NCBI RefSeq assembly: GCF_025790165.1
Contig: NZ_CP094970.1
Coordinates: forward strand, 248,001 to 312,000
Origin: Solicola gregarius
GTDB lineage: Bacteria > Actinomycetota > Actinomycetes > Propionibacteriales > Nocardioidaceae
Length of the DNA stretch: 64,000 bases
Direction of reading: 5' to 3'
The notes beneath the pieces are model-generated. The model had not been told where the DNA came from. It made no database searches and saw only the letters and a list, made by a program, of their open reading frames with translations. Within the stretch, counting starts at the first letter, position 1. Each line of letters opens with the position of its first letter. The position numbers and the translations under genes were made by a program. Positions 39,199-42,144 of the stretch are shown here, in pieces.

Positions 39199-39235
39199 TC
39201 CGCGAGCAGCGTCGGCTCACCGGGCTCAACCGCAT

Positions 39236-39256
39236 TTGACAATGATTCTCATTTGC
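39236..39256 (+). promoter_or_regulatory. Zur-type operator upstream of znuA
   Basis: TTGACAATGATTCTCATTTGC contains the perfect inverted core AATGA-TTC-TCATT (39241-39253), close to actinobacterial Zur/Fur boxes (TGAAAATGATTTTCATT-like). It also contains a TTGACA that could be a -35 element. The zur gene is the last gene of the same cluster, so autoregulated zinc repression is expected. Confidence 0.78.
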
Positions 39257-39257
39257 G

Positions 39258-40196
39258 GTGGAATCGTCCTATGCGATTCCACTCCCCCTGCTCCTCGCCG
39301 CCGTCGCTCCGGTGCTGCTGCTCACCGCGTGCGGAGGCGACGCCGACTCGGCATCGGGTACGCGCGTCGTCGCGTCGTTCTACCCGTTCGCGTACGTCGC
39401 CGAGCAGGTCGGCGGCGATGCGGTCGACGTCGAGAACCTCACCTCGCCGGGCGCGGAACCGCACGACATCGAGCTCGCACCGAAGCAGGTCGCGGCGGTC
39501 CAGGACGCCGACCTCGCGATCTTCGAGACGGGCTTCCAGCCGGCCGTCGACGACGCCGTCGACCAGGCCGACCTGTCCGACGACGCCCGACTCGACGTCG
39601 CCGACGTGGTCACCCTCCACGAGGCTGAGGAAGGCGAGCACGAGCACGAGGGCGAGGAGGGGCACGACCACGGCAGCCTCGACCCTCATGTCTGGCTCGA
39701 TCCGAACAACATGATCGCGATCACCGAGGCGGCGGCCGACCATCTGAGCGACGCGGACCCCGACCACGCCAAGGAGTTCGCGAAGAACGCAAAGGCGTTC
39801 ACCGATGAGCTCCGCGGGCTCGACCGCGCGTACGAGAAGGGGCTCGCGAACTGCGAACGCAGCACGATCGTGACGAGCCACGACGCATTCGGTTACCTCG
39901 CCGCACGGTACGGCCTCGAACAGGTGGGCATCGCCGGGCTCGACCCGAGCACCGAGCCGTCACCGGAGCAGCTCGCTGACATCACCGACCTCGTGCGCGA
40001 GGATGGGATCACGACGATCTTCACCGAGGAGCTCGTCAGCCCCGCGGTCGCCGAGACGGTGGCCGACGAGACCGGCGCCGACGTTGCGACGCTCGACCCG
40101 ATCGAGGGGCTCAGTGACGACACCGCCGACGAGACGTACGTTTCCCTGATGAAACAGAACCTCGACGCGCTGATGGAGGCGAACGGCTGCTCATGA
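39258..40196 (+). CDS. znuA: Zinc ABC transporter substrate-binding protein ZnuA
   Basis: A 312-residue metal-binding lipoprotein of SBP family 9. The mature part begins TRVVASFYPFAYVAEQVGGD. It has the His/Glu-rich metal loop HEAEEGEHEHEGEEGHDHGS and DPHVWLDPNNM, SHDAFGYLAARYGLEQVGIAGL and a C-terminal cysteine. The lipobox is LTAC. The only in-frame start is GTG 39258, which gives a signal peptide without any positive charge and no ribosome-binding site. An ATG at 39271 in another frame has GGTGGA eight bases upstream and would encode MRFHSP, joining LLLAAVAPVLLLTAC if one C were added to the five-C run at 39284-39288. The 5' end may therefore carry a one-base loss. Confidence 0.88.
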   Translation: MESSYAIPLPLLLAAVAPVLLLTACGGDADSASGTRVVASFYPFAYVAEQVGGDAVDVENLTSPGAEPHDIELAPKQVAAVQDADLAIFETGFQPAVDDAVDQADLSDDARLDVADVVTLHEAEEGEHEHEGEEGHDHGSLDPHVWLDPNNMIAITEAAADHLSDADPDHAKEFAKNAKAFTDELRGLDRAYEKGLANCERSTIVTSHDAFGYLAARYGLEQVGIAGLDPSTEPSPEQLADITDLVREDGITTIFTEELVSPAVAETVADETGADVATLDPIEGLSDDTADETYVSLMKQNLDALMEANGCS

Positions 40197-40378
40197 GCGG
40201 CGAGGAAGGTAGCGAGCGAAGTGGCCGGCCCGACGGAGGAGGGCGGTCCGCGGAGCGAGCGGACGACCGAGCGCGACCAAGAACCATGAGCGGCGAGGAA
40301 GGTAGCGAGCGAAGTGGCCGGCCCGACGGAGGAGGGCGGTCCGCGGAGCGAGCGGACGACCGAGCGCGACCAAGAACC
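40193..40378 (+). repeat. Perfect 93-bp tandem duplication at start of znuC
   Basis: Two identical 93-base units (40193-40285 and 40286-40378), each starting with ATGAGCGGCGAGGAAGGTAG. The first 20 or so bases of a third, diverging copy start at 40379. The unit is 31 codons, so all three ATGs share one frame. Each unit contains a GTCCGC-N7-GCGGAC hairpin. Confidence 0.95.
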
Positions 40379-41158
40379 ATGAGCGGCGAGGAAGATAGCG
40401 ACCCCCTTGCGCTGCACGATGTCGGCGTCGTACTCGGCGGCAGGCCGATCGTCCGGCAGGTCGACCTCTCGGTCGCCGCGGGCGAGTTCGTCACGCTCCT
40501 CGGCAGCAACGGCTCCGGCAAGTCGACACTCGTACGCGCCTGCGTGCGACTGCTGCCGCTGGCGACGGGCACGGTCGAGCTGTTCGGTACGTCGATCGAA
40601 CGGTTCCGCGACTGGCGGCGCGTCGGGTACGTGCCGCAGCGGTCGACCGCGACGTCGGGAGTGCCGTCGACGGTCGGCGAGGTGGTGATGACCGGCCGCC
40701 TCGCACGTCGCAGGTACGCCGGCTGGGCGACGGCACGCGACCGACGCGCCGTTCGCGAAGCGCTCGAGCTCGTCGACCTCGCCGCGCGCGAAGGCGACCC
40801 GGTCGCGCAGCTTTCCGGTGGCCAGCAGCAGCGAGTGATGATCGCACGCGCACTTGCAGGCGAACCGGAGCTGTTGGTCATGGATGAGCCGACGGCCGGC
40901 GTCGACCAGCACAGCCAGGAGATCCTCGCCGGCGTACTCCGCCGAATGCTCTCCGAGCAGACGACCGTCGTCATGGTCGCGCACGAGCTCGGTCCGTTCC
41001 GGACCATGGTCGACCGCGCGATCGTGCTGCGCGACGGACGCATCGCGTACGACGGAGCCGTACCCGACGAGCGCGACCACAGCGGCGACCAGCACCATCT
41101 GCACTCGAGCGAGCCGGTCGACGGCGCCGCCGTACCGCCCGAGGGGGTATGGCCGTGA
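40193..41158 (+). CDS. znuC: Zinc ABC transporter ATP-binding protein ZnuC with repeated N-terminus
   Basis: ATPase of the metal ABC family. Walker A is LLGSNGSGKST, the Q-loop is VGYVPQRS, the signature is [17 protein letters not shown] and Walker B is LLVMDEPTAGVD. The ABC domain starts at about LALHDVGVVLGG. The first 62 residues are two identical 31-residue repeats, charged and glycine/arginine-rich, and absent from normal ZnuC. ATG 40193 overlaps the znuA stop as ATGA. ATGs 40286 and 40379 are alternative starts, and the one at 40379 gives a normal protein of 259 residues. I cannot tell which is used. Confidence 0.9.
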   Translation: MSGEEGSERSGRPDGGGRSAERADDRARPRTMSGEEGSERSGRPDGGGRSAERADDRARPRTMSGEEDSDPLALHDVGVVLGGRPIVRQVDLSVAAGEFVTLLGSNGSGKSTLVRACVRLLPLATGTVELFGTSIERFRDWRRVGYVPQRSTATSGVPSTVGEVVMTGRLARRRYAGWATARDRRAVREALELVDLAAREGDPVAQLSGGQQQRVMIARALAGEPELLVMDEPTAGVDQHSQEILAGVLRRMLSEQTTVVMVAHELGPFRTMVDRAIVLRDGRIAYDGAVPDERDHSGDQHHLHSSEPVDGAAVPPEGVWP

Positions 41159-42144
41159 CGCTCGAGCTGCTCGACTACGACTTCATGCGGCGCGCGCTGA
41201 CCGCCGCGCTGTTGACCGGACTCACGGCGCCCGCGATCGGCACGTACCTCGTGCAGCGGCGTCTTGCCCTGCTCGGAGACGGCATCGGACACATCGCGCT
41301 GACCGGCGTGGCCGTCGGGCTGCTGACGAACCAGGCTCCCCTCGTCACCGCCGTGATCGTCTCGGCGCTCGGCGCGCTCGCCATCGAGCTGCTGCGCGCG
41401 TACGGACGTACGAGCGGCGACGTCGCACTCGCGCTGCTCTTCTACGGAGGCATCGCGGGTGGCGTGCTGCTGACCAACCTCGCGGGCGACTCCGTCGCGA
41501 CCCTGAACAGCTATCTGTTCGGGGCGATCACCACGGTGTCCGACTCCGACCTCCGGCTCGTCTGGATCCTCGCCGCCGTCGTGCTCATCGTCGCGATCGG
41601 CCTTGCCCCACAGCTGTTCGCGGTGTGCCAGGACGAGGAGTACGCGCGCGTCACGGGCGTGCCCGTCCGTGCGTACGGGCTGTTGATCGCCGTGCTCGCG
41701 GCCGTCACCGTCACGGTCTCGATGCGCACGGTCGGCCTGCTGCTGGTATCGGCGCTGATGGTCGTACCCGTTGCCACCGCGCAACAGTTCACGCGCAGCT
41801 TCCGGACGACCTTCGGTATCGCGATGGTCCTCGGAGTCATCGCCTCGATCTCCGGGGTCGGCGCGAGCTTCGAGTACGACACCTCGCCCGGGCCCACGAT
41901 CGTGATGATCGCGCTCGCGTTCTTCCTGGTGACCGCGCCGGTCGGGGCCGCCATCCGCGCAGCACGCCGCAGACGGCTGCCGTTCGACGCGACCGTCGAG
42001 CCCGCCCACGTACCGGCCGTCGAACACCCTCACGAACACGGCGACGACTGCGGTCACGCGGCGGTCCCCCACGGCGACCACGTCGACTACATTCATGGCG
42101 GTCACCGACACGCCTCCCACCAAGGCCACTACGACGAGCACTGA
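41149..42144 (+). CDS. znuB: Zinc ABC transporter permease ZnuB with His-rich tail
   Basis: A 331-residue permease of the ABC-3 family with about eight hydrophobic segments, including RRALTAALLTGLTAPAIGTYL and RRLALLGDGIGHIALTGVAVG. After the last helix and a basic RAARRRR stop, a 50-residue cytoplasmic tail contains 13 histidines (HPHEHGDDCGHAAVPHGDH and on), likely a zinc-binding regulatory or buffering tail. The start overlaps znuC by ten bases, consistent with an operon. Confidence 0.92.
   Translation: MAVTLELLDYDFMRRALTAALLTGLTAPAIGTYLVQRRLALLGDGIGHIALTGVAVGLLTNQAPLVTAVIVSALGALAIELLRAYGRTSGDVALALLFYGGIAGGVLLTNLAGDSVATLNSYLFGAITTVSDSDLRLVWILAAVVLIVAIGLAPQLFAVCQDEEYARVTGVPVRAYGLLIAVLAAVTVTVSMRTVGLLLVSALMVVPVATAQQFTRSFRTTFGIAMVLGVIASISGVGASFEYDTSPGPTIVMIALAFFLVTAPVGAAIRAARRRRLPFDATVEPAHVPAVEHPHEHGDDCGHAAVPHGDHVDYIHGGHRHASHQGHYDEH

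Follow-up and report, generated by a model that had tools for sequence, protein, structure and literature searches.

The analyzed window, a 64,000-nt stretch of the Solicola gregarius genome (bases 248001–312000), contains a zinc uptake operon on the forward strand, for which Pfam assigned in this order ZnuA, an ABC ATPase, an ABC-3 permease, and a FUR-family regulator. The zinc-binding lipoprotein gene znuA (39258–40196; Pfam ZnuA, E 4e-86) ends with a TGA that overlaps an ATG within the sequence ATGA at 40193–40196, and the permease gene znuB (41149–42144) overlaps the end of znuC. Two 93-bp units, MSGEEGSERSGRPDGGGRSAERADDRARPRT, separate the stop codon of znuA from the native start of znuC at 40379; they are arranged head to tail (40193–40285 and 40286–40378), are 100% identical, and leave one frame open throughout. 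The TRF score of this array is 413, compared to 69 for the next best array in the window. A partial third copy (23–24 nt, 96%; 40378–40401) follows directly after copy 2, and 22 of the 23 positions from 40379 to 40401 equal the head of the repeated element. The three ATGs at 40193, 40286, and 40379 share an open frame of 321 amino acids (40193–41158), composed of a 62-residue extension and the 259 residues of native ZnuC.

A single congener, here called G001, was available for comparison; its genome is largely colinear with that of S. gregarius, and neighboring DNA is mostly 73–90% identical. The znuA/znuC junction of G001 reads ...GGCTGCAGATGAGCGGTGAAGCAGG and lacks the insert. As MSGEEDSDPLALHDV, starting at 40379 in S. 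gregarius, corresponds to MSGEAGDAPLALHDV in G001, the third ATG is the native znuC start. The sequence-only reading of this region had described two perfect 31-codon units each beginning with ATG, a third ATG as the normal ZnuC start, a first ATG overlapping the znuA stop, and a frame-preserving unit that would lengthen the protein by a charged stretch of 31 residues per copy; the identity of the units, the match in G001, and the uninterrupted 321-residue frame bear out this description.

The same reading had also proposed three nested in-frame starts, of which only the first appears strong. The motif GGAGG at 40175–40179, the Shine–Dalgarno sequence of the ancestral znuC start, is conserved at the empty site of G001 and lies 13 nt upstream of the first ATG, a long spacing that is the same in the congener. 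The anti-Shine–Dalgarno energy is −9.3 kcal/mol at 40193 (−12.1 at the znuC start of G001) and −2.2 at both 40286 and 40379, which is weaker than the background mean of −3.1. Since a good Shine–Dalgarno sequence is present only at the first ATG, the likely product, judged from these energies, is a 321-residue ZnuC with a 62-residue extension translated from 40193, rather than a mixture from three competing starts.

Two minor features were observed around the start of znuA. The ATG that corresponds to the znuA start of the congener is located at about 39270 and is out of frame, because the C run following it is one base shorter than in the congener, and the 312-residue znuA frame is opened only by GTG at 39258; this discrepancy (39258–39300) is due to a sequencing error or to a switch of the start codon. 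Upstream of znuA, the sequence TTGACAATGATTCTCATTTGC (39231–39256) resembles a Zur/Fur box, and G001 has a similar sequence.

A dispersed repeat family and its target sites

A DNA search of the S. gregarius genome with the znuC unit found 8 further places, several of them with tandem copies. Searching with a long-form profile (R1, 93 positions) gave 11 loci containing 16 units (E 2e-22 to 3e-8), and a short-form profile (R2, 57 bp) added 25 loci containing 42 units (E < 1e-5). In total, 58 units at about 36 loci were counted, some long (~90 bp) and others short (~57 bp); both forms have the head ATGAGCGGCGAGGA, the centre GCGAGGRACGAGC, and the tail GAGCGCGACCA in common. Names of the affected genes were taken from translations, with the Pfam check covering the znu genes; the mtrA/mtrB-like and dop-like genes among them fit a high-GC actinobacterial host. 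The element is in sense orientation at each of the 22 loci that were translated; some short-form copies are located at stop codons or within genes instead of at ATGA starts. One array is oriented otherwise, that at guaB (3060k), where 8 short-form units lie upstream of the gene on the opposite strand (genome positions 3059906–3060358, minus strand) in steps of 57 or 58 bp. As this array is not in sense with its neighbor, it has no frame to keep and mixed steps are expected. G001 lacks the guaB array, and the gap there is filled by unrelated DNA.

Comparison of 17 orthologous sites revealed that the element is absent from G001 at 13, whereas the other four (3352k, sdhB, 3747k, and dop) have a shorter or diverged element in the congener. 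Clean examples are 3562k, where the empty site reads GTGCG/ATGAACAGC and S. gregarius has 44 additional bp, and 3313k, with CGCGC/ATGACGG and 92 additional bp. The empty gene sites in G001 read ATGA in 12 of 12 cases, compared to a background in that genome of 24% for all ATGs (p = 3e-8) and 28% for ORF starts (p = 2e-7). Because one of the 12 is an internal methionine codon of an acyl-CoA dehydrogenase gene, the recognized signal appears to be the DNA sequence ATGA rather than the start codon as such.

These data make it very probable that the znuC unit derives from a small dispersed repeat (~57 or 90 bp) with an imperfect palindrome, which targets ATGA sequences, in most cases those of start codons that often overlap the preceding stop. 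A slippage duplication confined to the start of znuC, without any mobile element, could account for the similarity of the unit's first 23 nt to the native start; this origin is highly improbable given that the remaining ~70 nt are missing from the empty site in G001 and recur at many other loci with 80–88% identity, and it is contradicted by the dispersed copies. The tandem duplication noted in the sequence-only reading is real insofar as two identical units exist, but it is not simply local, the unit being a member of a dispersed family. That the duplication is recent, as also claimed, agrees with identities of 97.8–100% between units within the seven tandem loci checked versus 70–87% between copies from six long-form loci. 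This difference indicates that duplication followed insertion or that copies were homogenized. Assemblies easily acquire copy-number errors at perfect repeats; however, the genome is a single 4.9-Mb contig, four of the seven tandem loci have 1–2 fixed differences between their units, and dispersal and empty sites are independent of copy number, so that an assembly error is hardly credible.

The insertion into the znuA/znuC junction would have occurred after the split from the congener and would have placed the element's own ATG beside the old Shine–Dalgarno sequence. As 93 is a multiple of three, the insert would have become an N-terminal extension of ZnuC, which one later tandem duplication would have doubled to 62 residues. 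Mobility and copy-number change may be ongoing.

Protein fusions, coupled small reading frames, and selection

The length of an insert determines which of two outcomes is found at a host gene. Where it is a multiple of three, the element is fused in frame to the host gene, as N-terminal fusions of znuC, a gene for a PaaX-like regulator, mtrB, 3932k (thioesterase-like), a DUF1707 gene, a helicase gene, and mnhE, or as in-frame internal segments of the acyl-CoA dehydrogenase and a cytochrome P450. Where it is 2 mod 3, the element forms a separate small ORF that has its own Shine–Dalgarno sequence and whose TGA overlaps the ATG of the next gene (ATGA), as at sdhB, ribH, dop, an ABC permease gene, 3747k, an mrdA-like gene, and 3352k. 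An internal ORF overlapping both neighbors was found at sdhB, ribH, the ABC permease gene, the mrdA-like gene, and 3352k, but not at znuC and the other inserts of 3n length, which are fused. Anti-Shine–Dalgarno energies range from −5.9 to −7.8 for the last start in the small-ORF class and from −2.2 to −5.3 for internal starts in the fusion class, without overlap (7 versus 6 loci, exact p = 0.0006). In the small-ORF class, the Shine–Dalgarno sequence for the downstream gene would be provided by the tail of the element. Expression of the host gene should persist under either outcome, and the element should therefore be tolerated.

Across ten 93-bp copies from six genomes, substitutions at codon positions 1, 2, and 3 are equally frequent (0.24, 0.27, and 0.26); no codon-position bias indicative of peptide selection was detected in this set, whereas the frame is seen to be open. 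This equal variation suggests that the encoded peptide is probably a tolerated passenger, and it argues against a selected peptide. For the proposed tuning of the znuA–znuC coupling, no evidence was found. It is improbable that the array is a functional VNTR whose unit number at znuC is selected to adjust this coupling or, via the charged extension, ZnuC activity. The frame-preserving periods, multiples of three, of 20 of the 31 arrays across genomes (derived by hand from profile-match coordinates; p = 0.0004 if independent) seem to favor such a role, but unit length is inherited within the family, so the arrays are not independent and the true support is lower than this value suggests; moreover, the same element occurs at dozens of unrelated genes, and the internal starts lack a Shine–Dalgarno sequence.

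An alignment of 12 copies revealed an imperfect palindrome of 20 pairs, with 92% of the cells paired. Seven pairs have changed on both sides, compared to a mean of 2.3 in shuffled alignments and with none of 500 shuffles reaching seven, and the signal is abolished by sliding the alignment by 1–3 columns. Inspection of the alignment by eye also indicated G-A/A-G steps between the paired blocks. The covarying palindrome, these steps, and the equal variation of codon positions would fit an element kept for its hairpin as a DNA or RNA structure, for example as a binding or mRNA-processing site, with the coding effect being incidental. We regard this as rather unlikely, since the single-strand folds of four copies were not clearly more stable than shuffled sequences (z +0.99 to −1.66), no Rfam match at gathering level was obtained, and a hairpin that serves mobilization alone would look identical. 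The fold and Rfam results likewise led to the rejection of an RNA element as a candidate.

Relation to known repeats and occurrence in other genomes

The mycobacterial MIRUs, whose length was reportedly put at 46–101 bp by Supply and colleagues in 1997, are not known to have clear dyad symmetry. Start codons are their insertion sites, where a small ORF is coupled to the following gene at −4 nt (PMC12548453), and they also occur as tandem copies between two operon genes, such as the three identical 77-bp units at senX3-regX3 (PMC4213456). The family found here resembles MIRUs as a short dispersed repeat that is also found in tandem (~36 loci, 58 units), by inserting into (D)TGA stop/start sites in the same orientation as the operon (12/12 ATGA, 22/22 sense), by tandem arrays between operon genes, and, at part of its loci, by the coupling of small ORFs to the next gene. 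A parallel to the MIRUs at senX3-regX3 is seen at genome positions 3287520–3287690, where tandem long-form units lengthen the apparent MtrB of an MtrA-MtrB two-component pair. In contrast to MIRUs as described, the znuC element has a covarying palindrome, and its relatives often fuse in frame with the host protein, some of them inside genes; the host belongs to another actinobacterial genus, and the comparison is by description, not by sequence. Given the difference in dyad symmetry and the descriptive nature of this comparison, the element was not classified as a MIRU.

The RPEs of Rickettsia are small palindromic repeats of about 150 bp, nearly half of which lie inside ORFs, where they are inserted in frame in unrelated genes and add a segment to the host protein (PMC10969869). 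Palindromic structure and in-frame ORF insertion are shared by the elements of S. gregarius (acyl-CoA dehydrogenase, P450, and the seven N-terminal fusions), which differ by a preference for ATGA start sites, by supplying the start codon, and by their length of ~57 or ~90 bp; Rickettsia belongs to a different phylum, and the likeness to RPEs is again one of description, not of sequence. REP/REPIN sequences are short dispersed repeats that form hairpins, are extragenic, and are linked to a Y1 transposase (RAYT). The element of S. gregarius is likewise short and dispersed and may form a hairpin, but REPs differ by their extragenic location and Y1 linkage. A search for the Y1/REP-type transposase PF01797 gave no match in the S. 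gregarius genome (control positive in 5 of 14), which makes mobilization by a REP/RAYT system unlikely. The feature at znuC is best described as a MIRU/RPE-like repeat that was recently inserted and duplicated, which probably gave ZnuC a 62-residue extension that is likely neutral.

Among 297 genomes of the class, 17 besides S. gregarius had a match at E ≤ 1e-5, most of them in one family (f23) and some in two others (f20 and f21); at the order level, three genomes of family f4 had weaker matches. In hosts from other families, the frame MSGExxSERSGRR... is joined to ABC permease-like proteins or to NuoE. Genomes of f23 and of f20 both have the element at the nuoD/nuoE junction, through independent insertions or through inheritance. 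A GTDB-wide pattern scan with the exact head, from which own or near-own records may be omitted, gave 30 scattered single matches without clusters that were judged to be chance. A mycobacterial identity of the f23 hosts, the best ones besides S. gregarius, was set aside because PE proteins had no match there, a weak result in that the control genomes gave one odd match only. A literature search found no publication that describes such repeats from other actinobacteria; for the element sequence, it gave only unrelated matches, judged at the level of titles and abstracts.

MIRU-like elements thus have a second group, apparently not described before, that occurs outside the mycobacteria. On balance, we lean toward a family of mobile repeats, palindromic and codon-compatible, that extends across the actinomycetes, is present in several of their families, and recognizes ATGA. 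Its copies would take over the start of the gene they enter, by adding a fused N-terminal extension or by providing a coupled small ORF with its own Shine–Dalgarno sequence, and would be a recurrent source of new protein N-termini. Filled and empty sites can be paired cleanly between the two congeners. Two questions become testable: by what means a repeat lacking an evident transposase selects ATGA, and how frequently core proteins (ZnuC, MtrB, NuoE, and others) gain longer N-termini from such repeats. Gene callers may mis-assign starts at loci that carry the element. Within family f4, the related elements of genus g29 are located at stop codons and are flanked by direct repeats of ~22–46 bp that include the end of the host gene.
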